IMG/VR virus record: IMGVR_UViG_3300008108_000044
Span: 1-64,000 of that record
DNA: 64,000 bases
Strand: one strand, 5' to 3'
Source: a virus
Shown piece by piece: positions 53-14,489 of this stretch. How positions within the stretch are numbered: the stretch's first letter is position 1; each line of letters starts with the position of its first letter. Below the pieces are notes generated by a model, which worked only from the letters and a program-made list of their open reading frames with translations, searched no databases and was not told where the DNA came from. The position numbers and the translations under genes are program-made.

Positions 53-844
53 ATGGCATCATACGCAAGCTATAAAAAAATTGACGCTTCAGTGCAATTA
101 GATGATGGCACTCTTCCTACAGATGCGGTAGCATCTGGAGTATTTTGTACTTGGAATGTTAGATATTTTTATGGGAGTCCAAATAGATGTTCTGGTGGTT
201 GTTGCTGTCTTTGGACTGTTCCAACTGGTGTGAGAAGAGTTTATTTTGAACTGTGGGGATCTGGTGGAAATGGGCATGGAATGTGTTCAACCTCCAGATG
301 CCAACATTATGCTGGCGCTCAAGGTGGATTTTATAATACAAAAATGTTAACAGTCTGCCCAGGATGGCAATATACTATCTGTGCTGGCGGTGTATTCCCT
401 TGTGAATCTATAGAATGCGTATCTTGTCGTGGATGTGCATCTTATGTTAATGGATGCAATTTAAGTAATTTTTGTGCTGCAGGAGGAGATGCTGGATGTG
501 CAAATGGAGCATGGAACGAAGCTTGCTTCTCTGATTGGGGATATTGCTGCATGAGTCCTGGGGCATGGGGTGGTGATTTTGGAATGAGTAATCATAGAGG
601 TGCTTTCTTTATTCATCAGGCACAATGCCATTGTCAATGTCAAGGATCTTCACCAACGGCAGCTCCTTTTATTGGAACTCAAGTTCAAACTCAAATTCAT
701 GAATGTTGGATGCGTTGTGGATGCTGGACATCACCATATGGTCATGGTGGTCAAGGTGCAATGACAACTTACTGTGGTGGTGGTAACTGCTGCGGAACTG
801 GATCTACTGGAGGTCCAGGATTAGTTAAGATCAGTTTCTTATAA
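53..844 (+). CDS. Cysteine- and glycine-rich virion/adhesin-like protein
   Basis: This 263-residue protein contains 28 cysteines, many in CC, CxC and CxxC arrangements. It also has a glycine-rich section typical of phage tail-tip adhesins: 'YFELWGSGGNG' near residue 65, 'AQGGFY' near 90 and a GGxG-rich C-terminus ending 'GGPGLVKISF'. The glycine-rich pattern resembles tail-fibre glycine-rich domains. There is no signal peptide or membrane segment. The late promoter before it and the tail-assembly-type gene after it suggest a virion role. The cysteine density is odd for a protein made in a reducing cytoplasm and suggests extracellular disulfides or metal binding. A receptor-binding or tail-fibre tip role is inference. 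Confidence 0.6.
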   Translation: MASYASYKKIDASVQLDDGTLPTDAVASGVFCTWNVRYFYGSPNRCSGGCCCLWTVPTGVRRVYFELWGSGGNGHGMCSTSRCQHYAGAQGGFYNTKMLTVCPGWQYTICAGGVFPCESIECVSCRGCASYVNGCNLSNFCAAGGDAGCANGAWNEACFSDWGYCCMSPGAWGGDFGMSNHRGAFFIHQAQCHCQCQGSSPTAAPFIGTQVQTQIHECWMRCGCWTSPYGHGGQGAMTTYCGGGNCCGTGSTGGPGLVKISFL

Positions 845-847
845 ATA
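840..847 (+). promoter_or_regulatory. Consensus T4 late promoter overlapping a stop codon
   Basis: TATAAATA is an exact match to the T4 late promoter consensus. It overlaps the TAA stop of the cysteine-rich gene and lies about 32 bp before the next ATG, with a GAAGGAG ribosome-binding region between. Confidence 0.75.
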
Positions 848-879
848 TTAATCGAAGGAGTTAACCTGAACAAATAACC

Positions 880-1638
880 ATGGCAGTAAAAATTATTTCA
901 GTAGAATTCGATCTTGGTCTACCAAATGAATATATGGTAGATCACTCTCAGTCTGAAGGTAAGACCCGTAAGTTTACTTATCACGGACCAGATAAAATCT
1001 ATCTTCAACTTGGCGAAGATGGAAAAGAAAAATATGGACCATTAACTGCAGATGAAATCATGGATGGCAGACCAATGCCAGCTGATGTTGTAGAATGGTA
1101 TGAGGTTGATTGTGAAACCAATCCATTGGTTTGTCAACTCAGAGGACCTGTAGTTAATGAACTTCAGGAGATGTATGATGAGACTCCATATCCCCATCCA
1201 AATTCTCCAGTTCTTCCAGGAACTAGTCAAATGATGGTTTATGGTCCTCCAAAACCTTGTGATATCTATGATGCTTTAACTGGAATTAAGAAAGAAGAAG
1301 ATGGTTCACTGTCTGTAAGAAAACTCTCTACACTTGAAGCAATTCATGGTGATGAGCATACTATCACTGAACTTGATCTTAAAAAGCAAAGAAATCAACT
1401 ATTATCAAATAGTGATGGACAAGTTGCTCCTGATATGCCAACTGAATTAATTGAAGAGTGGAAAGCGTATCGTCAAACATTAAGAGACTTTCCTGCAGTA
1501 ATTGAAGAAGCTGGAATTGACCCTAACATTGCTTTCTATATGTTCCCAGAAACACCAAAATCAGCAACTTCAAACGCAGAACTGCAATTGTTAATTGAAC
1601 AGCAAAGATTGCAAGCAGAGGCAGCAAATAACGGGTAA
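880..1638 (+). CDS. Tail-assembly-chaperone-like structural protein
   Basis: This is a 252-residue acidic, soluble protein. Residues about 185-215 read 'EEWKAYRQTLRDFP', the signature of the phage tail assembly chaperone family (Phage_tail_APC type). That motif often sits at the C-terminus of proteins encoded beside tail-fibre genes. The N-terminal part (1-180) is not recognised. It directly follows the adhesin-like gene and has its own consensus late promoter, so a role in fibre folding or assembly is likely. The exact partner is inferred from position. Confidence 0.6.
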   Translation: MAVKIISVEFDLGLPNEYMVDHSQSEGKTRKFTYHGPDKIYLQLGEDGKEKYGPLTADEIMDGRPMPADVVEWYEVDCETNPLVCQLRGPVVNELQEMYDETPYPHPNSPVLPGTSQMMVYGPPKPCDIYDALTGIKKEEDGSLSVRKLSTLEAIHGDEHTITELDLKKQRNQLLSNSDGQVAPDMPTELIEEWKAYRQTLRDFPAVIEEAGIDPNIAFYMFPETPKSATSNAELQLLIEQQRLQAEAANNG

Positions 1639-1665
1639 TATTACTGTTTGAATTTTATATAATAC

Positions 1666-2199
1666 ATGGATTATATTTTATACAAATTTGATTATATTAA
1701 AGATAATCAATTAGAATTGATAAAAGAACTGAAGATATCCCATGATAATATAGTAAAATATGGAGTCTTTGATACTACAAAGGCTTATATTTACTATAAT
1801 ATTTTTGGGGTATCTTCTCCGTCTATACACATGTATAGAATTTATCAAAAAGTTAGAGAGATTGTAAGAAGTAAATTTCCAAATGAAATACTTTGGATTC
1901 AATCTTGGTTAAATTATCATAATTATGATGAGGTTTTGGGTTGGCATAATCACAGTGCCAGTTGGCATGGGTATATATCTATAGAACCACAAGATACGGT
2001 AACTGAATTTGAGAATTGGACAATAGATAACGAATGTGGAAATATTTATTTTGGACCAGGAAGGCATAAGCATAGAGTAGTCAACCAAAGAAAGTATAAG
2101 GGAAAAAGAATCACACTTGGATTTGACATTATATTTGAGAATGATTATACTGGAGAGGTATCCCCAACGGAAAACTTTGGAGCAATTCCATTATTATAA
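1666..2199 (+). CDS. Putative Fe(II)/2-oxoglutarate oxygenase, HxH type
   Basis: This 177-residue protein has 'GWHNHSASWHGYISIEP' near residue 88, then 'GNIYFGPGRHKHRVV' and 'KRITLGFDI'. That order (H-x-H, a second His after a beta turn, then R) matches the small phage 2OG-Fe(II) oxygenase family related to PF13759. Such enzymes hydroxylate or otherwise oxidise small molecules, sugars or proteins; the substrate here is unknown. The stop overlaps the start of the next oxygenase gene (TAATG), so the two are probably translated together. No canonical HxD is present, so activity is uncertain. Confidence 0.6.
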   Translation: MDYILYKFDYIKDNQLELIKELKISHDNIVKYGVFDTTKAYIYYNIFGVSSPSIHMYRIYQKVREIVRSKFPNEILWIQSWLNYHNYDEVLGWHNHSASWHGYISIEPQDTVTEFENWTIDNECGNIYFGPGRHKHRVVNQRKYKGKRITLGFDIIFENDYTGEVSPTENFGAIPLL

Positions 2200-2903
2200 T
2201 GTTTGAAATTAATACTGATTTAAAAGTAAAGATTCAAAAAATAGATGATATATATTGGTCTGCTACAGATACTGGATTGGTTACTTTCAATTCAGATGTA
2301 ATTGTAGAAAAAATGATTTTTATTATTGATGATTTTTATCAAAATCCAGATGAAATACGCGAACTGACAAAAGAATCTGAAGTATATACTGATAAAGATC
2401 GACTAGCTGGTGCAATAGGTAGAAGGGTTTGGAGAGAAGAACCAGAATTGATGTATGAAATGGCACATCAAATGTGTCATGTATTTGAGCAGTTATGTCA
2501 ACATGAAGATTGGCATTTGGAATTTGATAAACAACATCATTATACTAAATGGGATGCTATGAGGTTCGTTGTTAATGTGACGAACAATCAAGAAATTATT
2601 GATTCTGATAGAGACTGGGATACCATTTGTCATATTGATGGTCCGTACAATAAATGGGCATCTTTAGTTTATTTAAATACTCCAGAAGAGTATGGAGAAG
2701 AAGAGTCTACTCCTGGAACTGGTTTTTATTCTGTAGTTCAACCAGAAGCAGATGGAAAAATAAATAAACCAAAGTTGCAATATGTTTGCCCAATGAAGTA
2801 TAATAGGGCAGTATTGTATGATGCTAACATGATCCATGGTGCAATCATGGAGACTGATATGTATAAAGACTATGATAGACTTACTCAAATCATGTTCTTT
2901 TAA
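2199..2903 (+). CDS. DUF6445-like 2OG-Fe(II) oxygenase
   Basis: This 234-residue protein has 'CHIDGPYNKWASLVYLN' (H-x-D iron ligands, near residue 147). After a glycine-rich turn come 'NRAVLYDANMIHGA' (distal His) and 'DRLTQIMFF' (Arg that would bind 2-oxoglutarate). This is the double-stranded beta-helix pattern of DUF6445 and prolyl-hydroxylase-like enzymes, with all expected ligands visible. It is translationally coupled to the upstream oxygenase and sits at the edge of the sugar-modification cluster. The substrate is unknown. Confidence 0.7.
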   Translation: MFEINTDLKVKIQKIDDIYWSATDTGLVTFNSDVIVEKMIFIIDDFYQNPDEIRELTKESEVYTDKDRLAGAIGRRVWREEPELMYEMAHQMCHVFEQLCQHEDWHLEFDKQHHYTKWDAMRFVVNVTNNQEIIDSDRDWDTICHIDGPYNKWASLVYLNTPEEYGEEESTPGTGFYSVVQPEADGKINKPKLQYVCPMKYNRAVLYDANMIHGAIMETDMYKDYDRLTQIMFF

Positions 2904-2932
2904 TTGATCTAAATATTTGTAAATCATGCTAT

Positions 2933-2938
2933 TATAAT
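2933..2938 (+). promoter_or_regulatory. Candidate -10 box before the glycan cluster
   Basis: TATAAT lies about 30 bp before the glycosyltransferase ATG, within an AT-rich gap that has no good -35 match. A GAGG ribosome-binding site follows. It may drive the long rightward cargo operon. Confidence 0.35.
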
Positions 2939-2969
2939 AGCAATATTAATTTAACTCTGAGGTTGAACA

Positions 2970-4082
2970 ATGAGGTCAAAGGCGTTTTTTATTAACGGCG
3001 GAGCGGGGCGTGTAATTTGCTCTATCCCTGCGCTTGAAAAATATGCAGAAACTCACGACGATTTTATTATCGTTTGTGAAGGAGGGACAGATTTTTACAA
3101 GGGTCATCCTACTTTACATGGAAAGGCATTTGATAATTGGCATAAAGGATTATTTGAAAACGAGATTAAACACAGGGATTGTGTATCTCCAGAACCATAT
3201 CGAGATTGGCATTATTACAATCAAAAATGCAGTTTAGCACAGTCATTTGATATTATAATCAATGAATTGGATTCTCCTAGAGATCTTCCTAAACCTAATA
3301 TTGTATTGAGTAAAGCAGAGATTGTTCAGGGTTTTAATATTGTTGAAGAGGTAAAAGCAGGAACGGGCAAAGACAAGGTTTTAGTTGTTCAACCTTTTGG
3401 TAGGTCAGTTGAACAATTGGGATCTGACTTTATTATTGATACTACTTCTAGAAGTTTTTCTTTAAATAATATTGTTAATATTATTAATGAACTTAAAAAA
3501 GATTATGCAATCATTATAATGAGTGAAATTCATTTTCCTTTAGAAGAAAATGAAGACAAGTCAAATTATAAAGTTGCTAGACCACAAATTCAAGATATGA
3601 GAATTTGGTCAGGAGTGATTGCTGCTGCAGATCACTTCTTGGGTTGTGATAGTATGGGTCAACATATTGCTAGAGCACTAGACAAGACTGCTACAGTTGT
3701 TACTGGTTCTACCTATCCAATTAATATTTCTTATCCAGATCATGCTGATTTTGATGTGATTGATGTTGGTGAAGGTAGACGAGTATATTCACCAATCCGA
3801 ATTGCAATAGATGAAGTTTCGGATCGTCTTAATGATGAATCAATGGAGTTGAGTCAATCTCAAGTTAAGGAAATTATTGATTCTGTGAAAAAAAGAATGG
3901 GAAAACCTGCTGCTTACACGGGATCCCTAACACTTCCACAAAAAGATATCGCTTCAAATGAATGTTGCCCTGCAACAGAAAAAAGACAAACCTTTAAATT
4001 TGATCCAACAAAAAATTCAAAGGGGTTTGGTAAACCACTTTTAGATAAAGAAACAGAAAATATCCTTCAAAAACTTAAGTGA
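2970..4082 (+). CDS. Glycosyltransferase family 9-like (heptosyltransferase-type)
   Basis: This 370-residue GT-B-like protein has an N-terminal 'INGGAGRVICSIPAL' loop (like the GDxL/GxA donor start of GT9). A second Rossmann half follows with 'VVQPFGRS' near 143 and 'AADHFLGCDSMGQHIARAL' near 216, matching the 'ADxFLGxDSGxxHxAxA' motif of ADP-heptose:LPS heptosyltransferases. Family members transfer heptose or related sugars from nucleotide donors. HldE- and HldD-like genes lie downstream, so an ADP-heptose-type donor is plausible. The last 80 residues look unstructured and are extra to the family. It heads a tightly packed rightward operon. Confidence 0.7.
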   Translation: MRSKAFFINGGAGRVICSIPALEKYAETHDDFIIVCEGGTDFYKGHPTLHGKAFDNWHKGLFENEIKHRDCVSPEPYRDWHYYNQKCSLAQSFDIIINELDSPRDLPKPNIVLSKAEIVQGFNIVEEVKAGTGKDKVLVVQPFGRSVEQLGSDFIIDTTSRSFSLNNIVNIINELKKDYAIIIMSEIHFPLEENEDKSNYKVARPQIQDMRIWSGVIAAADHFLGCDSMGQHIARALDKTATVVTGSTYPINISYPDHADFDVIDVGEGRRVYSPIRIAIDEVSDRLNDESMELSQSQVKEIIDSVKKRMGKPAAYTGSLTLPQKDIASNECCPATEKRQTFKFDPTKNSKGFGKPLLDKETENILQKLK

Positions 4083-4090
4083 GGTAAATC

Positions 4091-5893
4091 ATGGCAGAAT
4101 GGATCGCAGCTATTGCCAGAGGGCATAACTCTGGTGTTTGTCTTTTACATAATGGAGAAATTGTTTTATCCATTGAAGAGGAAAGACTTTCTAGACATAA
4201 GTATGATGGTGGACCTCTAGCGTCCATGGTTAAGATACTTGAGTATACTAAAAAACTTGATTATCTTGTAATCGCACATACTCAACCTTTGGGGTCAGCA
4301 GGAACAATTGATTTTACTGGTGATGATATTTACACTGGTATGGCAAGAAAACTTGGGTTGATTGATAGGAATCAAGATCCATATGATCATCCTCAAGTTA
4401 TAGATTTGAGTAGAACTCACCATAAACTTCATGCTGCATGTGCCTTTTATAGGTCTGGATTTAAATCTGCAGTATCTGTTGTTGTGGATGGTGCAGGTAC
4501 ATTTATTCCAATGAATATTGGAAGATCTCAAGAGATGAGTTGGGAACTTGAATCTATATTTTCTTGTGAATATCCAGCAAATATCAAAACTTTGTACAAA
4601 CATCAAGCAGGAAAAGGACCTTGGGGATCTGCATTAATTCCTCAGGTTGATAGTTCTGGTGAAGATGAGACTGGCACTCATGAATTAATTTTGGATGAGA
4701 GTGCTGGTATTACTAAAGCATATGAAGCAGTTACTCAGTATTGTGGATGGCCTCCTATTGAAGCTGGTAAAACTATGGGATTATTCCCATATGGAAAACC
4801 AAATAAAAAAGTACCTAAAATTTATACTGATGGTGGTGGGGGATTGTGGAAAACTTCTGATAGAAATGTAATTGTTCCAACCTACCCAAATGGCGCAGTT
4901 GTTAATGAAGGTAGATATGAATTTTTGTATACGCCAGAAGATTGTAAAGACTTGACATTGCTTGAAAATCGTAGAGATATGGCATATGCAATTCAAGTAG
5001 AATCTCAACAAATGGTATTGGATTTAATTCGTAAAGCAGTTGAGATGTCTGGTAATAATAATGTAGTTCTTTCTGGTGGATATGGACTTAACTGTGTTGC
5101 AAATTATTGGTATCTTGATCAGTTAAAGGATGAGAATATTAACTTGTTTGTAGAACCAGTAAGTAATGATGCTGGTACTGCAATAGGTGCTGCTCTACTG
5201 ACTTACTATAGAATTACAAACAGTAAAAAAATTAAAAAACAAATTGATAATCTTTATACTGGACCATCTTATATGTACACTGAACAACAAATACAAGAAG
5301 TTGCTTCAAAATATAACGCAACTTCTGTTACTCAAGCTTCCTATGAAGATGTAATTGATTTGATTACGGATAAAAATATTGTTGCTTTGTTCCAAGGAAG
5401 ATCTGAAGCAGGTCCTCGTGCTCTTGGCAATCGTTCTATTCTTTATGATCCTCGTGATCCAGATGGAAAAGATCATGTAAATAGAATCAAACGTAGAGAA
5501 TATTTTAGACCTTTTGCTGGATCTATTCTTAAAGATTATGTTCATGAGTGGTTTGATCTTCGTGGAATGGATGAGACTCCATTTATGATGTATGCTGTAA
5601 ATTGTCGAGATGGTATAGAAGAAAAAATTCCAGCAATTATTCATGTTGATGGAACTTGTAGAATTCAAACGGTAACTCAAGAACAAAATAAGCATTATTA
5701 TAATCTAATTAATACTTTTTATGAGAGAACTGGTTGTCCTATAATTTTTAATACATCATTTAATCTTGGTGGGGAACCTCTTGTTGAAACTTTAGACGAT
5801 GCTTGTAGAACTCTTGCTAACAGTTTAATTGAATATCTCTATCTACCTGAATATCAAACACTAATTACTATTAAAAATGAAACCCCTTCGTAG
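4091..5893 (+). CDS. Carbamoyltransferase, NodU/CmcH (TobZ) family, full length
   Basis: This protein is 600 residues long, the usual family length. The N-terminal Kae1-like ASKHA domain shows 'ARGHNSGVCLLHNGEIV', 'EEERLSRHKY', 'HHKLHAACAFYRSGF' and 'VLSGGYGLNCVAN'. The C-terminal domain carries the invariant 'GRSEAGPRALGNRSI' and 'NRIKRREYFRPFAGSIL'. The family makes carbamoyl-adenylate from carbamoyl phosphate and ATP and carbamoylates hydroxyls of sugars or natural products. A GAGG ribosome-binding site precedes the ATG. It overlaps the halogenase gene by 17 bp, implying co-translation. The acceptor is unknown. Confidence 0.88.
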   Translation: MAEWIAAIARGHNSGVCLLHNGEIVLSIEEERLSRHKYDGGPLASMVKILEYTKKLDYLVIAHTQPLGSAGTIDFTGDDIYTGMARKLGLIDRNQDPYDHPQVIDLSRTHHKLHAACAFYRSGFKSAVSVVVDGAGTFIPMNIGRSQEMSWELESIFSCEYPANIKTLYKHQAGKGPWGSALIPQVDSSGEDETGTHELILDESAGITKAYEAVTQYCGWPPIEAGKTMGLFPYGKPNKKVPKIYTDGGGGLWKTSDRNVIVPTYPNGAVVNEGRYEFLYTPEDCKDLTLLENRRDMAYAIQVESQQMVLDLIRKAVEMSGNNNVVLSGGYGLNCVANYWYLDQLKDENINLFVEPVSNDAGTAIGAALLTYYRITNSKKIKKQIDNLYTGPSYMYTEQQIQEVASKYNATSVTQASYEDVIDLITDKNIVALFQGRSEAGPRALGNRSILYDPRDPDGKDHVNRIKRREYFRPFAGSILKDYVHEWFDLRGMDETPFMMYAVNCRDGIEEKIPAIIHVDGTCRIQTVTQEQNKHYYNLINTFYERTGCPIIFNTSFNLGGEPLVETLDDACRTLANSLIEYLYLPEYQTLITIKNETPS

Positions 5894-7397
5894 AATTGTA
5901 ATCGTTGGCGGCGGAACCTCTGGATGGTTAACCGCTGCTTTTTTACTTAAAAAAGTAAGATCTTATTGTGAGATTGTAGTTGTTGATAAGACACAATCAG
6001 AAACTGTTGGTGTTGGTGAGGCAACTGTGCTTTCATTTAAACAGTTTATGAATTTTTGTGGTTTTGATGCTGAAGAATGGGTTCCAGCTATAGATGCGAC
6101 TTTTAAAAGTGGAATCTTGTTTACTGACTGGCAAAAAGAAGGAGCAGATCTTTGGCATCCATTTGCCTATCCCGAGTTCAAACACCTCAAAACAAATCTT
6201 TTAAATCTTTGGACATTAAATAAGGATAAAGATTTTTTTACTCATGGTTGTGCATTGTACAATCCAGCGGTAACTGAAAATAAAATTGATCCAACAAACT
6301 TAGGAACATATGCCAATCATATTGACTGTGGTAGGTTGGTTCAATATATTAAAACAAAAATATCGAATAAAATAACTTTTGTAAGTCAAGAAGTTGTAGA
6401 GGTTAAAAGAAATTCTAACGGTGGAATACAGTGTATCATCTTAGAATCTGGAGAAGAAATTGAATCAGATTTATTTGTTGATTGCACTGGATGGAAAAGA
6501 CTATTGGGATCTAAACCAGATACTGTTAATTGTAGGGACAGATTGTTTTGTGATACTGCAGTTGCAGGACATGTTCCCTATGATGATATTGAACAAGAGT
6601 TAACGCCTTATACAAAATGTTGCGCTGTTGATCATGGATGGATATGGAAAATTCCAACACAATCAAGAATTGGATCTGGATTAGTATTTAATCGTGATAT
6701 AACTGATCCAGAAGAAGCAAAAGAATACTTTGTTAGACATTGGAATAATAGGATAAGTAAAAATGATTTAAAATTATTGGATTGGACTCCATATTATCAT
6801 AATAATTTTTGGGAAGATAATGTTGTTTGCATTGGATTATCCGCAGGATTTATTGAACCTTTAGAAAGCACTGGAGTTGCATTAATATGTGCTGGTATTA
6901 TTGAACTTGCAGAAGGACTTAAAGGTAATTACTACAATGTAATGGATACTCTTGTTTACAATAAAAAAATGAAAGCGTTTTTTGAAAATTGTGTTGATTA
7001 TGTAAGTATGCATTATTCACATAATCAAAGAACAACGGGTAAGTTTTGGAAGTTTGTTCAAGATACTTATAATATTACTGAGACACAAAAGTTTTTTGAA
7101 AATGAAGTTCAAAACAATCCATATGAATTACCAACAGATGGTGATTATATGTTTGTTGGAGAAAATTGGGGTGTTTTATTGTGTCAATTATTAAATAAAA
7201 ATAATATTGAACCAAAAAATAATGGAATAACTTCTGATCAAGCATTGATCTTATCTGAAGACTTCTATAAAAATGAAATTGAAAAACATAAAAAATCTAT
7301 TTTACATAAAAAATTTGTTGATGATCTTTTATCTAGAATTGATAGAGGAGAACCAGCAAATATTCCTTTTAACTCGTCTAGTCCCGTTAAGATGTGA
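5877..7397 (+). CDS. Flavin-dependent (tryptophan-type) halogenase
   Basis: This protein is 506 residues long, the normal length for the family. The FAD-binding 'VIVGGGTSGWLTA' (GxGxxG) is at the N-terminus. The halogenase diagnostic WxWxIP appears as 'WIWKIP' near residue 257. The Lys of 'ATFKSGI' near residue 78 fits the catalytic lysine that handles hypohalite. 'EPLESTG' near 328 carries the conserved Glu. The family uses FADH2, oxygen and halide to halogenate aromatic rings; a relative from cyanophage Syn10 (VirX1) is a known iodinating enzyme with broad substrates. It sits between a carbamoyltransferase and an oxygenase. No dedicated flavin reductase is seen in the window. Confidence 0.88.
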   Translation: MKPLRRIVIVGGGTSGWLTAAFLLKKVRSYCEIVVVDKTQSETVGVGEATVLSFKQFMNFCGFDAEEWVPAIDATFKSGILFTDWQKEGADLWHPFAYPEFKHLKTNLLNLWTLNKDKDFFTHGCALYNPAVTENKIDPTNLGTYANHIDCGRLVQYIKTKISNKITFVSQEVVEVKRNSNGGIQCIILESGEEIESDLFVDCTGWKRLLGSKPDTVNCRDRLFCDTAVAGHVPYDDIEQELTPYTKCCAVDHGWIWKIPTQSRIGSGLVFNRDITDPEEAKEYFVRHWNNRISKNDLKLLDWTPYYHNNFWEDNVVCIGLSAGFIEPLESTGVALICAGIIELAEGLKGNYYNVMDTLVYNKKMKAFFENCVDYVSMHYSHNQRTTGKFWKFVQDTYNITETQKFFENEVQNNPYELPTDGDYMFVGENWGVLLCQLLNKNNIEPKNNGITSDQALILSEDFYKNEIEKHKKSILHKKFVDDLLSRIDRGEPANIPFNSSSPVKM

Positions 7398-8023
7398 TGG
7401 ATTTAGTTAAAGCTTACAAAAATTTTATCAGTGAAGAAGAAAAAAATATTCTTAATACTTGGACCCTATCGAATTATAAAAAGAATTATTTTATAGATCC
7501 AAAAATGGATTCAAGAAAACTTGAAAATACAAAATTAACTACAAGATTTGCTAACCCTTTAGTTAATTATGGCAATCCTCTTTTAGATTCTTCTTCTCAT
7601 GATCATATAAATTTTGTAGTTTCTTCTAATCCAAATTTTGTTTATCCTCAAGTTGCTTATGATATACAAAAAAGAATAGCATTGACGTTTGAATTTGAAG
7701 ATTTTGGATTATCTCCAGTTGGTAAAGATGGAATTGTTAGTGAGATAAGTTTTGAAGGAGGAACTGTGCATCCACATGTTGATCCAGTTTGGTTTGACGG
7801 AACACAAACAGTTCATTTTAATTTCATAACACAAAAACCTTTGTCTGGGGGAATAACATATATTGAAAATCAACCATGGGAAGTTGAAGAAACTGATTTA
7901 TTGTCATATATTGTATCAAAAGCTGAACATAAAGTTGATGAGATTATAGGTACTAAAGAAAGAATACTTTGGGTATTCAGTTTTATGTTGTCTGAAAAAG
8001 ATACTGAGAGGATATTTTCGTGA
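7397..8023 (+). CDS. 2OG-Fe(II) oxygenase (HxD..H..R)
   Basis: This 208-residue protein has 'HPHVDPVWFDGTQTVHFNF' near residue 125 (H-x-D ligands). Next come 'GGITYIENQPW', a late His in 'KAEHKVDEI' and an Arg in 'KERILWVFSF'. This is a complete double-stranded beta-helix ligand set. The ATG at 7397 overlaps the halogenase TGA and is preferred to the in-frame GTG one codon upstream. Its stop overlaps the GTG of the adenylyltransferase gene. Substrate unknown; the context suggests tailoring of the same product as the halogenase. Confidence 0.65.
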   Translation: MDLVKAYKNFISEEEKNILNTWTLSNYKKNYFIDPKMDSRKLENTKLTTRFANPLVNYGNPLLDSSSHDHINFVVSSNPNFVYPQVAYDIQKRIALTFEFEDFGLSPVGKDGIVSEISFEGGTVHPHVDPVWFDGTQTVHFNFITQKPLSGGITYIENQPWEVEETDLLSYIVSKAEHKVDEIIGTKERILWVFSFMLSEKDTERIFS

Positions 8024-8427
8024 AAAAAGTTTTTGTAAATGGAACGTTTGATCTCCTTCACAAAGGACATCTTGAACTTTTAAATTTTGCTAAGTCTTAT
8101 GGTGATTACTTGATAGTTGCCATTGATACTGATGAACGAGTAAGAGAAAAAAAAGGGTTAACTAGACCAATATATAATCAAGACGATAGAAAATTTTTTT
8201 TAAATATGTTAAAACCTGTTAATCAGGTTGAGTTATTTTCTAGTGATGAAGAATTAGAAAAATTGATAAAAGGATTTAATCCTGATATAATGATTGTAGG
8301 ATCTGATTGGAAAAATAAACCAGTAATTGGTTCTCAATATGCAAAAAGATTAATTTTTTTTGATAGAATAAGTGACTATGCAACCACAAAAACAATACAC
8401 AGTATTATTAATAGGGGAAACCTGTGA
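8020..8427 (+). CDS. HldE-type (RfaE2) nucleotidyltransferase
   Basis: This 135-residue single-domain nucleotidyltransferase starts with GTG. It shows 'NGTFDLLHKGHLELL' (GxFDxxHxGH), 'VAIDTDERVREKKG', 'RPIYNQDDR', 'PDIMIVGSDW' and a C-terminal 'TTKTIHSI' like the 'STT' end of HldE and TagD. It would activate a sugar phosphate with ATP or CTP. Because the next gene matches the HldE kinase domain and an HldD epimerase lies 3.6 kb on, D-glycero-D-manno-heptose 1-phosphate adenylyltransferase is the best reading. A glycerol-3-phosphate-type cytidylyltransferase is the alternative. Confidence 0.72.
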   Translation: MKKVFVNGTFDLLHKGHLELLNFAKSYGDYLIVAIDTDERVREKKGLTRPIYNQDDRKFFLNMLKPVNQVELFSSDEELEKLIKGFNPDIMIVGSDWKNKPVIGSQYAKRLIFFDRISDYATTKTIHSIINRGNL

Positions 8428-9157
8428 GGATAGTTATATCTACGGAACAGTAGATAGAATAAGTCCAGAAGCTCCTATACCAATTTTAAATTATGAACGA
8501 ACAGAAACTTCTTTAGGAATGTCTGCTAACGTTAAGAATAATCTTGAATCTTTTGGAGTATTTGTAAATCATATTACAAATAAAAAACTCATTAAGAAAA
8601 GAAGATTTGTTCATAGTGGATCTAATCAACAAATATTAAGAGTTGATGAAGATAATTTTGTTGATCCAATAAAACCATCTGAGGTTAGAAGTGCCTTTCT
8701 TCATTTAAATTATGATGCTGTAGTTATTTCTGATTATGATAAAGGATTTTTAACAACGCAAGATCTCAAAGTATTCTGTCAAAATTTTAAAGGTCCAGTA
8801 TTCATTGACACTAAGAAAAGAGATTTGTTTACTGAACCGAACGTAATATTTAAAATAAATCAGAGAGAGTATAACAATCTTATTACAAAACCAGAACCAC
8901 AGCATTTAATTGTTACAAAAGGATCGTCTGGAGTTGAGTATTGTAAATTATTATATCCAGTTGATAAAGTTAATGTGTTTGATGTTGTTGGTGCAGGAGA
9001 CACCTTCCTTGCAGCATTCGTTTATGCATTTTTACAATATGAAAATTATGAGGCAAGATTAGATTCTTCTATTAGATTCGCTAATAAAGCAGCTGCGATA
9101 TCTGTTCAACATTATGGATGTTATACTTTAACACAAGAAGATATTAGGAGTATTTAA
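8378..9157 (+). CDS. HldE-type (RfaE1) sugar kinase, PfkB family
   Basis: This PfkB kinase is about 259 residues, shorter than the 310-320 residue HldE kinase domain. 'GTVDRISPEAPIPIL' is the RfaE1 hallmark. 'SLGMSANVKNNLESFG' follows, where the family has GGAANVA. The C-terminal 'DVVGAGDTFLAAF' holds the catalytic Asp. It should phosphorylate D-glycero-D-manno-heptose 7-phosphate at C1. The ATG at 8378 is preferred to the GTG two codons upstream; either start overlaps the transferase gene by about 50 bp. In bacteria the two domains are usually one protein with the kinase first. Here they are separate genes in reverse order. Confidence 0.75.
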   Translation: MQPQKQYTVLLIGETCEDSYIYGTVDRISPEAPIPILNYERTETSLGMSANVKNNLESFGVFVNHITNKKLIKKRRFVHSGSNQQILRVDEDNFVDPIKPSEVRSAFLHLNYDAVVISDYDKGFLTTQDLKVFCQNFKGPVFIDTKKRDLFTEPNVIFKINQREYNNLITKPEPQHLIVTKGSSGVEYCKLLYPVDKVNVFDVVGAGDTFLAAFVYAFLQYENYEARLDSSIRFANKAAAISVQHYGCYTLTQEDIRSI

Positions 9158-9159
9158 AA

Positions 9160-10236
9160 ATGTCTGTTTATTGGGGAGTAAATTTATCTCATGATGGATC
9201 CATTTGTCAGTTGAATGATGATGGAGAAATTGATTGGTTTGTTGAGGAAGAAAGATATGCGAGAGATAAACAACTTGAATTGCCGTTATCTCCTATTCCT
9301 TTTTTAGATTACAGTGAAGAGATGTATCCATTGCAAATATCAGGTCTTTATGAAATTTGGGATAAAAGAAAAATAGAGGAATCCGCCAGACAATTTTCTA
9401 CTTTAGTTCAAAAATTTTTTAATAGACAAAACTGTAGTAGTAAAAAGAAAGTAACATATGATTTATTTTTAGAACATCATGTTTATCATGCGGCTTGTGG
9501 TTTTTACAATTCTGGATTCAAAGATGCTGCAGTATTAGTCGTTGATGGCATGGGAAATTATATTAACGATGATTATCATGAAGTTGAATCAATATATAAA
9601 TTTCAATATCCAAATAAGTGCAAATGTTACCATGTTAATGTAACAAATTCATTTATGAAATCTGATAAACATCCCTTTGACAGGCAACCAATAGGTATTG
9701 GCATGATTTATAGTGCAATATCAGACTACCTTGGATTTGGATCTTTGGGATCAGGTAAGGTTATGGGTATGTCTGCGTATGGGAAAGAAGATAAAAATAT
9801 AAAATCTTTTATTGTTGATGGTAAATTAGATTCCAGTCAATTCTATAGAACTAAATACGGAATTAATTTTATACCATATGATTATGTAAATTTTAAAGGT
9901 TTTTCAGTTGATAAAAACAATCCGAAGATACAAAATCTTTATAATCTTGCATATAGGATTCAAAAAGATTTTGAAGATTATATGAGTAATTTAATAATGT
10001 ATACCCTTCAAATAACTGGAGCAAAAAATATTGTTTTGACTGGTGGATGTGCTTTAAATTGCGTTGCAAATTATAAGTACTTGGATATCTTACCAAAAGG
10101 TGTAAAATTATATGTAGAACCAATTTCTACTGATGCTGGTACTGCAATCGGTCTTGCTAAATTGCAGTACCATCAACAAACACAATCTATGGATCCAAAA
10201 CCACTTAAAACTTTATATCTGGGATTAGAACAATGA
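9160..10236 (+). CDS. Carbamoyltransferase homolog lacking the C-terminal domain
   Basis: This 358-residue protein matches only the N-terminal ASKHA half of NodU/CmcH proteins. Visible motifs are 'GVNLSHDGSICQL', 'EEERYARDKQ', 'HHVYHAACGFYNSGF', 'GSGKVMGMSAYG' and 'VLTGGCALNCVAN'. It ends at 'LKTLYLGLEQ', just where full-length relatives continue into the 'EAGPRALGNRS' domain that binds carbamoyl phosphate and ATP. The stop is clean and overlaps the next ATG (ATGA), so the truncation looks stable rather than a sequencing break. It may be inactive, regulatory, or a partner of one of the two full-length copies. An AGGAG ribosome-binding site precedes it. Confidence 0.75.
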   Translation: MSVYWGVNLSHDGSICQLNDDGEIDWFVEEERYARDKQLELPLSPIPFLDYSEEMYPLQISGLYEIWDKRKIEESARQFSTLVQKFFNRQNCSSKKKVTYDLFLEHHVYHAACGFYNSGFKDAAVLVVDGMGNYINDDYHEVESIYKFQYPNKCKCYHVNVTNSFMKSDKHPFDRQPIGIGMIYSAISDYLGFGSLGSGKVMGMSAYGKEDKNIKSFIVDGKLDSSQFYRTKYGINFIPYDYVNFKGFSVDKNNPKIQNLYNLAYRIQKDFEDYMSNLIMYTLQITGAKNIVLTGGCALNCVANYKYLDILPKGVKLYVEPISTDAGTAIGLAKLQYHQQTQSMDPKPLKTLYLGLEQ

Positions 10237-10565
10237 AAACTTATTGCGTTGATATTGATGGTGTTATTGCTAAACCACTTGGTATATGTAAAACTTGTAA
10301 ATATGAGTCATCTCTTCCCATAAAAAAGAATATTGAAAGGATAAACAAACTATATGACGAGGGAAATATAATAAAATATTTTACTGCGAGAGGTATGGGA
10401 ACGTATCAAGACGATGGTAACCTTGCGTCTGCAAGATGGAAAGAACTTACTGAACTCCAATTAAGAATTTGGGGATGTAAATACCATCAATTGATTATGG
10501 GTAAACCATCTGCGGACTACTATATAGATGATAAAGCAATAAATTCAGATGACTTCTTTAAATAA
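10233..10565 (+). CDS. HAD-superfamily sugar-phosphatase-like protein
   Basis: This 110-residue minimal HAD protein has 'YCVDIDGVI' (motif I, DxD), 'YFTARGMG' (motif II, Thr), 'MGKPSADYYIDDKAI' (Lys of motif III and DD of motif IV). Similar short HAD proteins lie in capsule and LPS clusters. It might supply the heptose-bisphosphate phosphatase step (GmhB), but it is shorter than GmhB and lacks its zinc-binding cysteine pattern, so that is only a suggestion. It overlaps genes on both sides. Confidence 0.65.
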   Translation: MKTYCVDIDGVIAKPLGICKTCKYESSLPIKKNIERINKLYDEGNIIKYFTARGMGTYQDDGNLASARWKELTELQLRIWGCKYHQLIMGKPSADYYIDDKAINSDDFFK

Positions 10566-10902
10566 ATTTGTCCCTAAAGGATGGGGATATGAAAAGTGGA
10601 TAGTCAATAACGAAAAGTATTGCGGTAAACTTTTATTCTTTGAAAGAAATAAAAGATGTTCTTGGCATTATCATAAAGTAAAAGAAGAAACTTTTTACTT
10701 GCATAGTGGTAAAATATATTTGTGGTATGGATGGGATGAAGATCTTGCAAAAGCTGAAATGAAAATAATGGAACCAGGTGATGCATTTCACGTTCCAATC
10801 GGATTAAAGCATCAGATGATTGCTTTGGAAGATTCTGAATTGTTTGAATTTTCTACAGAACATTTTGATGATGATAGTTATAGGTTGATACGAGGTGATT
10901 GA
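10549..10902 (+). CDS. Cupin-domain protein
   Basis: This 117-residue single cupin has motif 1 'CSWHYHKVKEETFYLHSG' and motif 2 'PGDAFHVPIGLKHQMIAL', giving the usual three His and one Glu metal ligands. It ends 'FEFSTEHFDDDSYRL', as in mannose-6-phosphate-isomerase-type cupins found in surface-sugar clusters. It may be a sugar isomerase or epimerase, or a binding protein. It overlaps the HAD gene by 17 bp, consistent with translational coupling. Confidence 0.68.
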   Translation: MTSLNKFVPKGWGYEKWIVNNEKYCGKLLFFERNKRCSWHYHKVKEETFYLHSGKIYLWYGWDEDLAKAEMKIMEPGDAFHVPIGLKHQMIALEDSELFEFSTEHFDDDSYRLIRGD

Positions 10903-11489
10903 TGATGTTGACGTTCAAAGATTTAATATATGAAAAGCAGGATGCAATAACAAAACAAGAATGTGCAGAATTTATAAAATGGTTTTGGAATAATACTGAT
11001 TTGCATGTTCAAGGAAAAGTTTATGGTGGAGTAGATGCATCATCTTTAAGTAACACTGTAAATTTAGACAGAAAAAATACAACTCAAGCATATCCAAAAC
11101 CAGAAGATCCTATTTCAGATACTATAACTAAAATTATTTTTTCTGGTTATGATGAATATGCCTCTAAATTACCAGTACCACAAGGACAACCATTATGCAC
11201 TACTACATATTCGATACGAGTATATCGCAAGGGTGAAGGAAAGTTTTTAGAACACGTTGATCAATCTGCTGGTCCAAATGTCACGAGAATTTTTGGTGTA
11301 ATTTTATATCTTAATACTGTGGATGATGGTGGAGAAACAGATTTCTTAGATTATAATTTAAAGATAAAACCAGAAGCTGGAAAATTACTTATATTCCCTT
11401 GTAATTATCTTTATCGCCATCAAGGAAATATTCCTATCTCAGATGACAAATATATTGTAACCGCTTTTATTAATTTTGCAGATGTATAA
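10902..11489 (+). CDS. Prolyl-4-hydroxylase-like 2OG-Fe(II) oxygenase
   Basis: This 195-residue protein has 'KGEGKFLEHVDQSAG' (H-x-D) near residue 112, then 'GVILYLNTVDDGGETDF', 'AGKLLIFPCNYLYRHQG' (distal His) and 'DKYIVTAFINF' (Lys in the 2-oxoglutarate position, as in P4H). All expected residues are present. The ATG overlaps the cupin stop and a GAGG ribosome-binding site lies just before it; an ATG one codon on is also possible. Substrate unknown. Confidence 0.72.
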   Translation: MMLTFKDLIYEKQDAITKQECAEFIKWFWNNTDLHVQGKVYGGVDASSLSNTVNLDRKNTTQAYPKPEDPISDTITKIIFSGYDEYASKLPVPQGQPLCTTTYSIRVYRKGEGKFLEHVDQSAGPNVTRIFGVILYLNTVDDGGETDFLDYNLKIKPEAGKLLIFPCNYLYRHQGNIPISDDKYIVTAFINFADV

Positions 11490-12096
11490 TACTAATATTA
11501 CTAAACCATTTGGACCATGTATTTTAGAATGTATGTGTCCTAAAAATATATTAAAAAATTTTAATTCTTTTGTTGATGATATGGATCAAGAAACAAAAGA
11601 ATTGTGTTCTTCCAAATATAGTAAAGTTGATGGATTTCCTGATCTATTGGAACGTGGATTTGAAATTATATACTTGACCTCCAATCAGTGCGAAGAGATT
11701 GGATTTTCTAAATTTATTGCCGATGTTACGCCAGAATATCTTAAAACATTTGGAATTAATAGTGCTGAAATATTTTTTACTCCCGCACATTTTTCAGATG
11801 TATTTGTTGATGTTTGGGTTAATCGTTATTTCGTTGGAGATTATACGCCACCCCATGATCATAAGGGACATATATCTGGAATAACAATATTGGATCTTCC
11901 TAAAGATTCTGATTGGTATGATTTGCACAACTTAGAATTTATTTGGAATAATGAACATCATAGACCAGATCAAGAAGTTGGAAAGACTTTTTTGTTTCCC
12001 AGTACTCTTATGCATTGGGTTGTAAAACAAAAAAGTCTTTTAGAAAGAAGAACAGTAAGTTTTAATTTACTTGTAAATACTCCTCAACAGACTTAA
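11482..12096 (+). CDS. Putative 2OG-Fe(II) oxygenase, HxH type
   Basis: This 204-residue protein has 'RYFVGDYTPPHDHKGHISG' near residue 120. 'GKTFLFPSTLMHWVV' and 'ERRTVSFNL' follow, fitting the PF13759-like fold with His, distal His and Arg. The N-terminal 100 residues are not recognised. It is the last rightward gene of the cargo operon and its 3' end overlaps the convergent HldD gene by 35 bp. Iron-ligand assignment is uncertain because the first motif is H-D-H rather than H-x-D. Confidence 0.58.
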   Translation: MYNTNITKPFGPCILECMCPKNILKNFNSFVDDMDQETKELCSSKYSKVDGFPDLLERGFEIIYLTSNQCEEIGFSKFIADVTPEYLKTFGINSAEIFFTPAHFSDVFVDVWVNRYFVGDYTPPHDHKGHISGITILDLPKDSDWYDLHNLEFIWNNEHHRPDQEVGKTFLFPSTLMHWVVKQKSLLERRTVSFNLLVNTPQQT

Positions 12097-12871
12097 ATTT
12101 ATAATTACCAATCCACTTCATATCTGCACATGTGTATGTTTGGTACTTACCTCGTAAATGCTCTGGGAAGGGAATGGTATTGATAGTACCGTTCTCTTTT
12201 TTTGCAACTAACTCTGCTACATGTTGAAATGATACTGGAGACCCTGTTCCAAGGTCATATATGCCACTCGGAGAGTTGTTATTAAGAACAATATCAATAA
12301 CATCATCTACACATATAAAATCTCTCAAGAATCTATCGGAACCTTCAAAAAGATTTAAAGAACCAGTTTCCTTAATCTCTTTGGTAAATTTACTTACAGG
12401 ACTTGCTTGATTTCCTTTATTTTCTTCTCCACTTCCATAAACATTAAAGTATCTAAATCCTTGAACGAGAGAAAATTTATCTATATTATCTAGAACAGTA
12501 TAATCAACTTGCAATTTAGATATTGCGTATTGATTTAGTGGATTTATTGTACTCTTTTTTTGATGTATATTTTGGTTACCGTAAACGGATGCTGACGATG
12601 CGTATTTAATTGGGATTTCATATTGGACTGCAATATTCAAAAGAGCACATGAGAATGCAACGTTATAGTGCCAAAGCTTATGTAAATCCTTTTCTGTGGT
12701 TGATGATATTGCTCCTTGATGTAGTATCAAAGATACTTTTTCCCATTGATCAAATTCTCTTAATAGTCTCCAAGAATCTTCTTGACCTATTAATAAAATA
12801 TCTTCTCCACTAGTAATCTTGTTTGCAAAATGACTTCCAATGAATCCAGATGAACCAGTAAGTATGATCAT
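12062..12871 (-). CDS. hldD: ADP-L-glycero-D-manno-heptose-6-epimerase-like (HldD)
   Basis: This 269-residue short-chain epimerase has 'ILTGSSGFIGSHFANKI' at the N-terminus (NADP-binding TGxxGFIG), 'SSASVYGN', the catalytic 'YAISK', 'RYFNVYGSGEENKGNQASPV' and 'RDFICVDDVIDIV'. This combination is characteristic of HldD/RfaD, which inverts C6 of ADP-heptose; E. coli HldD is about 310 residues, so this is a compact form. It is on the strand opposite to the rest of the cluster. An AGGA ribosome-binding site precedes the ATG. With the split HldE genes it gives three steps of ADP-L,D-heptose synthesis. Confidence 0.85.
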   Translation of the reverse strand: MIILTGSSGFIGSHFANKITSGEDILLIGQEDSWRLLREFDQWEKVSLILHQGAISSTTEKDLHKLWHYNVAFSCALLNIAVQYEIPIKYASSASVYGNQNIHQKKSTINPLNQYAISKLQVDYTVLDNIDKFSLVQGFRYFNVYGSGEENKGNQASPVSKFTKEIKETGSLNLFEGSDRFLRDFICVDDVIDIVLNNNSPSGIYDLGTGSPVSFQHVAELVAKKENGTINTIPFPEHLRGKYQTYTCADMKWIGNYKFKSVEEYLQVN

Positions 12872-12922: not shown

Positions 12923-13579
12923 ATGGCGTTTGGATCTCTAGCATCATACCCAACTACAGATAATTTTGCTCATATACTTTATACATCACCTTCATCTAAT
13001 TTTGTTGAAGGTAGAGTTTACGCTGTTAATATGGGATCTGTTCCAGTAAAAATTAGAATTGCAGTTCTGGGAACCGCTAATATAGATGACCTAGCAATAT
13101 CTGATTACATTATATATAACCATTCGATTCAAATTGGTGATAGGTTTGTAACGGATAAAATATTTTTAAAGGATGGAGAATCTGTCGTAGTACGTGCAGA
13201 TGTACCAGGTGTAAAATTTAGTTTCCGTGGGTCTGAGGTAGGATTAACAACATCTCTTTGTGGAATTATATCCGCGTTCAGTCCGTCAACAAGTCTAAAG
13301 ATAGGAGCGGGGCAAACTGTATTTAATTTACCAGCATCAATGGTAGAAACAGATGCAAATCTTTATATTACAAACACTTCTCCAGATTATGTTGAAGTAA
13401 GTGTTGGCATTGGAACTACGATTGGCTCCAATCATTATCTGGTGTATAATCAAAGAGTAGAACCTGGTCACTTTTTCTGTCAAGACGATATTAAATTGGG
13501 CGCAGGAGAAATTATTTTTGCCAAGTCTACTTCAACAAATGTAAACATTGTAGCATTAGGAAAAACAACTCATAGATGA
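12923..13579 (+). CDS. Virion structural protein with two tandem beta domains
   Basis: This 218-residue protein is rich in Thr, Val, Ile and Gly, with no Trp. The two halves align by eye. 'VYAVNMGSVPVKIRIAVLG' then 'YIIYNHSIQIGDRF' (about 32-75) corresponds to 'LYITNTSPDYVEVSVGIG' then 'YLVYNQRVEPGHFF' (about 140-185). Each copy has a following acidic 'LKDGE' or 'LGAGE' turn. The pattern suggests duplicated beta-sandwich modules of a capsid or tail decoration protein. A late promoter supports a virion role. The exact location is unknown. Confidence 0.6.
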   Translation: MAFGSLASYPTTDNFAHILYTSPSSNFVEGRVYAVNMGSVPVKIRIAVLGTANIDDLAISDYIIYNHSIQIGDRFVTDKIFLKDGESVVVRADVPGVKFSFRGSEVGLTTSLCGIISAFSPSTSLKIGAGQTVFNLPASMVETDANLYITNTSPDYVEVSVGIGTTIGSNHYLVYNQRVEPGHFFCQDDIKLGAGEIIFAKSTSTNVNIVALGKTTHR

Positions 13580-13818
13580 TGAAATTTACAGTATATTCTA
13601 AGGACGGTTGTCCATATTGCAGCAAGATTGAACAACTACTTCAAGTTGCAGAACTTCAACATGTAATTTATAAATTGGGAAGAGATTTTACTCGTGAAGA
13701 GTTTTACTCTGAGTTTGGACCTGGGTCAACTTTCCCACAGGTTGTTCTAAATGATCAGCATTTGGGTGGTTGTACAGATACAGCACGTTATTTAAAAGAA
13801 AATAATATTATTGCTTAA
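13576..13818 (+). CDS. grx: Glutaredoxin
   Basis: This 80-residue thioredoxin-fold protein has the dithiol active site 'CPYC' at residues about 12-15, the cis-Pro segment 'TFPQVVL' and the glutathione-binding 'GGCTDT'. It reduces disulfides and can serve ribonucleotide reductase, as T4 NrdC does. Its ATG overlaps the upstream stop. Its stop shares the palindrome TTAA with the stop of the convergent bilin reductase gene. Confidence 0.9.
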   Translation: MMKFTVYSKDGCPYCSKIEQLLQVAELQHVIYKLGRDFTREEFYSEFGPGSTFPQVVLNDQHLGGCTDTARYLKENNIIA

Positions 13819-14459
13819 GCAAGATCGAATAAGAAGTTATTAATATACTTTCTAGCAAATTCTTTATCATAATATGATTTAAGAATTCCATATGCGGGAT
13901 CTGTATATGATAGGTGATGATCGTAACCTATTTGAAATATGTGGGATTGACCAGTCCCACATTTTTTTATGCAATCATTATACCGTTCTAAGTACAAATC
14001 TAGTTTGGTTAAATACTCTTCATAAAAATTTTTATCAGTATTTTTTAACCATAATTTTTTTGAAAAATATTTGTCTAAATCATATACCTTAGATACATTT
14101 TTTACTCTATCTGGTTGGTCGCTAAGGTATGGTAGAATATATTCATTCTCATATTCTTTATCCATTTTTAGTGGATGAAAATCTATAGTGCCAAAATATT
14201 TTTTATCTGAACACGCTACAAATTCTGTACCAAAAATTGGATTGAGATATTGGAAGTCTGGATATATAACAAGAGACTCTGCGATAAATTTATTTTTAAT
14301 ATTTAATTCACACAATCTAATTCTTCTTAACTTTTCTGTTCTCCATACATATGACTTTATTGTTGAGTTATCATCTTTAATTTCTTGATCTAACCAATGA
14401 GGCAGTTCTACATGAATTAGATTTGAATACTTATTAAATAATATATTCTTTACGCTCAT
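13815..14459 (-). CDS. Ferredoxin-dependent bilin reductase (PebS/PebA/PcyA family)
   Basis: This 214-residue protein matches the FDBR fold. 'LVIYPDFQYLNPIFGTEF' and 'SDKKYFGTIDFHPL' (about 83-115) correspond to the PebS segment with catalytic Asp105. 'YFSKKLWLK' and 'YLTKLDLYLERYNDCI' follow. 'YDHHLSYTDPAYG' keeps the Asp equivalent to PebS Asp206, and the end 'YINNFLFDL' is typical. These enzymes reduce biliverdin to phycobilins. Cyanophage PebS makes phycoerythrobilin in one protein of about 233 residues. PebA, PebS or PcyA-like specificity cannot be settled here. It is an auxiliary host-pigment gene on the reverse strand. Confidence 0.82.
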   Translation of the reverse strand: MSVKNILFNKYSNLIHVELPHWLDQEIKDDNSTIKSYVWRTEKLRRIRLCELNIKNKFIAESLVIYPDFQYLNPIFGTEFVACSDKKYFGTIDFHPLKMDKEYENEYILPYLSDQPDRVKNVSKVYDLDKYFSKKLWLKNTDKNFYEEYLTKLDLYLERYNDCIKKCGTGQSHIFQIGYDHHLSYTDPAYGILKSYYDKEFARKYINNFLFDLA

Positions 14460-14480: not shown

Positions 14481-14489
14481 TATTTATTA
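14481..14489 (-). promoter_or_regulatory. Candidate late promoter for the bilin reductase
   Basis: On the minus strand the sequence reads TAATAAATA, about 22 bp before the bilin reductase ATG, in a 29-bp divergent gap. Its edge overlaps the ATG of the carbamoyltransferase on the other strand. Confidence 0.4.

Follow-up and report, generated by a model that had tools for sequence, protein, structure and literature searches.

VirX1, from the cyanophage Syn10, is a viral flavin-dependent halogenase of the PF04820 family (Trp_halogenase) whose activity has been reviewed (PMC8407142). For the natural substrate of viral halogenases, the published ideas are antibiotic protection (PMC2984593, PMC9964418) or general halogenation of metabolites. 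Here we describe another viral halogenase, encoded at positions 5877–7397 of a 64,000-nucleotide stretch of viral DNA (positions 1 to 64,000 of IMG/VR record IMGVR_UViG_3300008108_000044; hereafter, the window). The window is part of a 79.5-kb virus record with the gene content of a T4-like cyanophage, and its source is a virus of marine cyanobacteria. The halogenase gene lies in a cassette of tail-fibre, sugar, and oxygenase genes, and parts of this cassette resemble other described systems. TibC and AAH are heptosyltransferases of autotransporter adhesins; TibC heptosylates the adhesin TibA, which is a precedent for heptose on an adhesin protein (PMC4358343). In phage P-SSM2, the T4-GC 302–308 cluster encodes a glycosyltransferase-like protein, a carbamoyltransferase, and HldE-like and HldD-like proteins. 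It lies directly after the tail fibre genes, as does the cassette that we describe, but it was annotated as separate sugar genes and not as a tail-fibre module. We propose that the cassette serves to modify the tail-fibre tip of the phage itself, with the window halogenase as an optional tailoring enzyme, and we would give this proposal an even chance of being correct.

A predicted halogenase from a separate viral clade

The initial annotation described an intact halogenase with GxGxxG, WxWxIP, a catalytic lysine, and EPLESTG, and this description was borne out. The open reading frame (ORF) is complete, with an ATG start, zero internal stops, and 506 codons' worth of protein. Residues 6–434 match PF04820 (E = 6e-93; 312.6 bits versus a cut-off of 21), and every motif is present: GGGTSG at residues 11–16, WIWKIP at 255–260, and EPLESTG at 327–333. 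Lys77 aligns with the catalytic Lys79 of PrnA, and the catalytic glutamate is Glu330. Across the 188 viral halogenases that we collected, K77, E48, W255, E327, P328, and E330 are invariant. We also computed the ratio of nonsynonymous to synonymous substitution rates (dN/dS) against five relatives. It is about 0.06 for a 99%-identical relative, about 0.15 for a 76%-identical relative, and 0.21–0.27 for relatives that are 61–65% identical. These values indicate purifying selection, so the gene appears to be maintained as a functional protein. From its sequence, we predict that the ORF encodes a flavin-dependent halogenase of the working type.

VirX1 had been put forward as a relative of this halogenase. 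VirX1 (Syn10 CPUG_00131, identical in sequence to PDB 6QGM) does share its family and motifs, but the two proteins are only about 30% identical. A tree of 111 viral representatives, PrnA, and Th-Hal puts the window halogenase in a clade of 48 and VirX1 in a separate clade of 29 (both with SH-aLRT support of 100). PrnA and Th-Hal group nearer to VirX1 than to the window clade (support 86). Because of the low identity and the different viral clade, the activity of VirX1 is not closely transferable to the window halogenase. The tree places the latter in a separate, uncharacterised viral clade, and we know of no assayed member. A scan of bacterial genomes found three distant matches only (27–31% identity), with both of the patterns used being strict.

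The halogenase occupies a variable slot in a conserved cassette

The halogenase gene is part of a run (53–12096) whose genes all share one strand; adjacent genes overlap by as many as 56 nucleotides (nt) or are separated by no more than 66 nt. The carbamoyltransferase gene upstream (4091–5893) overlaps it by 17 nt and the ORF downstream (7394–8023) overlaps it by 4 nt, in agreement with the description of a tight phage operon. Coupling to a carbamoyltransferase and an oxygenase had also been claimed. The carbamoyltransferase is real, with both of the domains expected for the NodU/CmcH type (Carbam_trans_N and Carbam_trans_C), but the oxygenase, which would be of the 2-oxoglutarate (2OG)-Fe(II) type, is only probable: the downstream ORF has no match in Pfam or PHROG, and a PDB-based search gave no confirmation. 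Its HxD...H pattern is invariant. For its low-confidence structural model (pLDDT 50), most matches were 2OG dioxygenases of the prolyl-hydroxylase type, and no match had E < 0.01.

If the neighbouring genes are to tell us about the substrate, then they should be conserved, and within the clade they are. S-SSM7 and S-SSM6a have the same gene order (with halogenases that are 42% identical to the window's), and so do dozens of IMG/VR contigs. In S-SSM7 and Sf-FS3, the block lies between the tail-fibre genes and gp13. The conserved module comprises one to three Cys- and Gly-rich adhesin-like ORFs, a fibre chaperone, a glycosyltransferase, a carbamoyltransferase, and genes for nucleotide diphosphate-heptose (NDP-heptose).

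We compared 65 cassettes from IMG/VR and from phages, which were found via the halogenase or the carbamoyltransferase. The slot between the carbamoyltransferase and the RfaE domain II gene contains one or two halogenases in 55 of these; the remaining 10 hold 2OG genes or nothing. In P-SSM2, S-CAM1, and Sf-FS3, the cassette is present and its slot holds no halogenase; the P-SSM2 cluster mentioned above is otherwise the same core cassette. On a tree of the carbamoyltransferases, the presence of the halogenase requires five changes, of which at least three are forced by supported branches. A scan for the glycosyltransferase (2970–4082) gave 41 loci with enough flanking sequence. A carbamoyltransferase and at least one Cys-rich, Gly-rich ORF were present at all 41, while heptose genes were present at 30 and a halogenase at 24. 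So we consider the adhesin-like ORF, the chaperone, the transferase, and the carbamoyltransferase to be the core, and the halogenase to be accessory.

Neighbours of other viral halogenases

For viral halogenases in general, we considered the ten genes on either side of 38 loci (one each), with 28 ThyX loci as the control; this control is small and is not matched for location in the tail region. Gly-rich ORFs were near 28/38 halogenases versus 2/28 controls (P = 4e-8), 2OG oxygenases were near 32/38 versus 6/28 (P = 6e-7), and heptose genes were near 8/38 versus 0/28 (P = 0.017). Carbamoyltransferases were not significantly enriched (10/38 versus 3/28; P = 0.13). Thus, the carbamoyltransferase and oxygenase that were proposed as the clue to the substrate are conserved in the window clade, but the carbamoyltransferase is not a general neighbour of viral halogenases. 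The clue is mainly the module of heptose, heptosyltransferase-fold, and carbamoyltransferase genes beside Cys-rich proteins, not the carbamoyltransferase–oxygenase pair.

In six complete cyanophage genomes, the halogenases of the tail region adjoin Gly-rich ORFs and runs of 2OG genes. Within single genomes, the distance from these tail-region copies to a Gly-rich ORF is only moderately unusual (fractions of 0.03–0.18), so we rely on the multi-locus comparison. VirX1 itself adjoins Gly-rich tail-fibre ORFs (the ORF beside it matches tail-fibre PHROGs) and 2OG oxygenases, but its locus has no adjoining carbamoyltransferase or heptose cassette, and its Gly-rich neighbours are not Cys-rich. The link to heptose recurs in a second context: in a distinct group of T4-like phages (L039, L044, and L048), a pair of halogenases is followed by a bifunctional HldE, HldD, and a cupin.

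Some viruses have additional halogenase genes. Four virus contigs (L020, L037, L059, and L089) have three to five of them, interleaved with many 2OG oxygenases and beside three Gly-rich ORFs. S-SSM7 has a second, shortened halogenase-like gene outside the tail-fibre region (168249–169352 of record W01; 367 amino acids), and G002 has a similar one. S-RIM44 (W04, at about 172 kb) and Sf-FP1 (W06, at about 176 kb) each have another halogenase locus that is not in the tail region and that also directly adjoins a Gly-rich ORF. For S-CREM1, the published text on the virion proteome does not name the ORFs detected in the vicinity of the phage's halogenase.

A putative heptosyltransferase-fold enzyme and Cys-rich adhesin-like proteins

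A profile search of the cassette's glycosyltransferase against PDB sequences found nothing relevant, so we used fold comparison instead. The top matches for the AlphaFold2 model (pLDDT 65.7) were the GT9 structure 3tov (Z = 17.5), WaaF (Z = 15.5), TibC (Z = 14), and WaaC (Z = 13.6). That is, the predicted fold is that of a heptosyltransferase (Z = 13–17.5). The N-terminal beta-barrel of TibC and BAHT is absent: residue 1 of the model aligns with residue 96 of TibC. The window resembles the TibC/AAH systems (PMC4358343) in the predicted transferase fold, the supply of NDP-heptose, and the adjacent adhesin-like protein. Besides the missing barrel, it differs in that the acceptor would be a Cys-rich phage protein and in that the cassette has extra enzymes for carbamoyl, halogen, and hydroxyl groups.

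The Gly-rich adhesin-type ORFs at 82 transferase-positive loci average 10.1% Cys (range 7.8–11.1), versus 0.6% (0–3.7) at 33 transferase-negative loci, and the ranges do not overlap. Most of the transferase-positive loci are related to one another. However, the diverged adhesin-type ORFs of S-CAM1 and P-SSM2 still have 8–12% Cys, and a homologue of the transferase (phrog_8954; E = 1.7e-26) is present in Aeromonas phage HJ05, which belongs to a different lineage. Because Cys content tracks the transferase, in diverged phages and in HJ05 as well, the Cys-rich proteins are probably acceptors or partners of the transferase.

In HJ05, a tail fibre protein with a Cys-rich C-terminus is encoded at L386:7303–9918, and the transferase homologue is directly after it. 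About 30 records of Vibrio phages also carry a homologue; in one of these (D505), it adjoins a large tail protein.

A proposed role in modifying the tail-fibre tip

Our proposal builds on the gene families, their conserved order, the variability of the slot, the co-occurrence of the genes, and the predicted fold of the transferase. We infer that the Cys-rich protein forms a tip of the tail fibre and serves as the acceptor, and that this adhesin is what the halogenase modifies. The HldE-like kinase and nucleotidyltransferase and the HldD-like epimerase would produce NDP-heptose. The heptosyltransferase-fold enzyme would place heptose on the adjacent Cys- and Gly-rich adhesin-like proteins, either O-linked (as by TibC) or on cysteine, before these proteins fold with their dedicated chaperone or while they are doing so. 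We suggest cysteine because the Cys content of the adhesins tracks the transferase so closely. The carbamoyltransferases would add O-carbamoyl groups to the sugar or to the protein. The halogenase, using FADH2, O2, and halide, would halogenate the same tail-fibre proteins that the 2OG oxygenases would hydroxylate, with aromatic or other side chains as the likeliest sites. With exchangeable halogenases, hydroxylases, and extra carbamoyltransferases in the slot, the phage would be able to change the surface that contacts its host. In its broadest form, our proposal is that marine phages halogenate, heptosylate, carbamoylate, and hydroxylate their own Cys-rich tail-fibre-tip proteins, with a swappable halogenase and with heptose maybe on cysteine; we offer this broad form tentatively and consider it less likely than not. 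Published roles for cyanophage 2OG oxygenases are nitrogen metabolism or DNA repair (PMC3037559). These ideas, like antibiotic protection for the halogenases, leave the gene order unexplained.

Several observations weigh against our proposal. Adhesins from cassettes that have a halogenase do not differ in Trp or Tyr content from those of cassettes that lack one (P = 0.28 and 0.22). The transferase has no match among the curated GT9 families of Pfam or NCBIfam, which is why we name it by its fold only, and the confidence of its model is modest (pLDDT 65.7) and is low at the C-terminus. RfaE and HldD are by far the best NCBIfam matches for the heptose enzymes, yet the bit scores are below the equivalog cut-offs. 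The cassette loci share descent and are not independent. In the L039/L044 group, the fetched flanks contain no Gly-rich ORF. And varied genes are known to gather in the tail region, a hypervariable island for host recognition (PMC7029224), so gene proximity alone is weak evidence.

We also considered that the cassette might alter a surface glycan of the host (lipopolysaccharide (LPS) or capsule), for instance to block superinfection, with the halogenase decorating an aromatic group that is linked to the glycan. Genes for NDP-heptose, heptosyltransferase-fold enzymes, and carbamoyltransferases are typical of surface polysaccharide loci, and the authors of a study of pelagimyophages suggested that glycosyltransferases of the same island change the host surface (PMC7029224). 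However, the LPS of marine Synechococcus lacks heptose and 3-deoxy-D-manno-oct-2-ulosonic acid (KDO) (PMC4515613), which makes a role in the host's LPS core unlikely. Furthermore, we saw no lipid-linked or export genes in the block, and the transferase occurs with Cys-rich adhesin-like ORFs at every one of the 41 loci, and almost always with the fibre chaperone, as well as being tracked by the adhesins' Cys content. So a role in modifying the host's glycans seems unlikely. As for modification of the phage's DNA, in which the carbamoyltransferase and oxygenases would modify bases and the halogenase would act on the modified base, we consider this very improbable. Some phage carbamoyltransferases do modify 5-hydroxymethylcytosine, but no computed result points there, and the cassette belongs to the tail-fibre region, where its partners are a heptosyltransferase-fold enzyme and Cys-rich ORFs of structural type rather than genes for DNA modification.

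The halogenase might act on a small molecule, such as free tryptophan, indole, or a host metabolite, to give an antimicrobial or signalling product, as for pyrrolnitrin. This would fit with its family-level similarity to PrnA, RebH, and VirX1 and with the published speculation about antibiotic protection (PMC2984593, PMC9964418). PrnA and RebH share its fold family, GxGxxG, WxWxIP, and the catalytic Lys and Glu, but their identity to it is low, and the C-terminal segment cannot be aligned locally. The local alignment to PrnA ends at PrnA residue 412, and the profile alignment is weak beyond that, while it is the C-terminal segment of PrnA that binds the tryptophan backbone. Also, what is conserved around the halogenase are genes for tail fibres and sugars; there is no small-molecule cluster, nor any biosynthetic partner gene in the contexts that we examined. 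We view a small-molecule substrate as rather improbable. It is quite improbable that the halogenase gene is a passenger in the hypervariable island, an unrelated auxiliary gene without a functional tie to its neighbours. The slot is indeed variable, with the halogenase missing from 10 of the 65 cassettes and from the three isolates, but this one slot is reused for halogenases and for 2OG and carbamoyltransferase genes across divergent cassettes, and halogenases as a class are associated with Gly-rich ORFs and 2OG oxygenases.

Genes of the cassette in the window

The features of the window's cassette are listed in Table 1. The Cys-rich ORF at 53–844 is the last of what is a triplet in relatives; the window begins there. 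The stand-alone carbamoyltransferase N domain has 358 amino acids and no YrdC-like C domain. Comparable ORFs are present in many cassettes, so this is probably a genuine enzyme, and perhaps it uses carbamoyl-adenylate from the full-length carbamoyltransferase. Farther along, on the minus strand, a ferredoxin-dependent bilin reductase (13815–14459) has 2x9o (15,16-dihydrobiliverdin:ferredoxin oxidoreductase) as its best relative in PDB. A third carbamoyltransferase (14489–16108) adjoins it.

Table 1. Features of the halogenase cassette and its flanks, in window coordinates.
Feature	Position	Strand	Evidence
Cys-rich (10%), Gly-rich (16%) adhesin-like ORF, phrog_4205	53–844	+	PHROG, composition, sub-threshold Gly_rich_2
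Tail (fibre) assembly chaperone family, PF16778, phrog_4912	880–1638	+	In related cassettes almost always
2OG-Fe(II) oxygenase-like, phrog_81 (weak)	1666–2199	+	PHROG E = 1e-6; other match sub-threshold
DUF6445 / 2OG-oxygenase-like ORF	2199–2903	+	Pfam
Putative heptosyltransferase-fold glycosyltransferase, phrog_8954 (no annotated function)	2970–4082	+	Fold matches of AlphaFold2 model
O-carbamoyltransferase, NodU/CmcH type	4091–5893	+	Carbam_trans_N and Carbam_trans_C
Predicted flavin-dependent halogenase, intact, catalytic Lys77 and Glu330	5877–7397	+	Pfam, motifs, alignment of viral halogenases
Putative 2OG-Fe(II) oxygenase, HxD...H pattern	7394–8023	+	Weak evidence
HldE C-domain-like heptose-1-P nucleotidyltransferase (RfaE domain II)	8020–8427	+	E = 1e-29, below curated cut-off
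HldE N-domain-like heptose-7-P kinase (RfaE domain I)	8372–9157	+	E = 8e-41, below curated cut-off
Stand-alone carbamoyltransferase N (Kae1-like) domain	9160–10236	+	Pfam; recurs as ORF of 296–390 amino acids
EcbF/BcbF-like capsule phosphatase (phage annotation: phosphoheptose isomerase)	10233–10565	+	NCBIfam, PHROG
Cupin, probably sugar metabolism	10549–10902	+	Pfam, PHROG
2OG-Fe(II) oxygenase	10899–11489	+	PF13640, 5.8e-11
2OG-Fe(II) oxygenase	11476–12096	+	PF13759, 9.7e-10
ADP-heptose 6-epimerase-like (HldD family)	12062–12871	-	TIGR02197, 1.8e-64, below curated cut-off
Tail fibre protein family, phrog_11338	12923–13579	+	PHROG

Implications

The conserved context of these halogenases leads to a specific prediction about named proteins of cultured phages (S-SSM7 and Syn10). 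If our proposal is correct, it would give a function to the unannotated family phrog_8954 and to many of the 2OG oxygenases of cyanophages. It would also describe a modular system by which phages decorate their adhesins, and it would give viral halogenases a natural job that can be tested.

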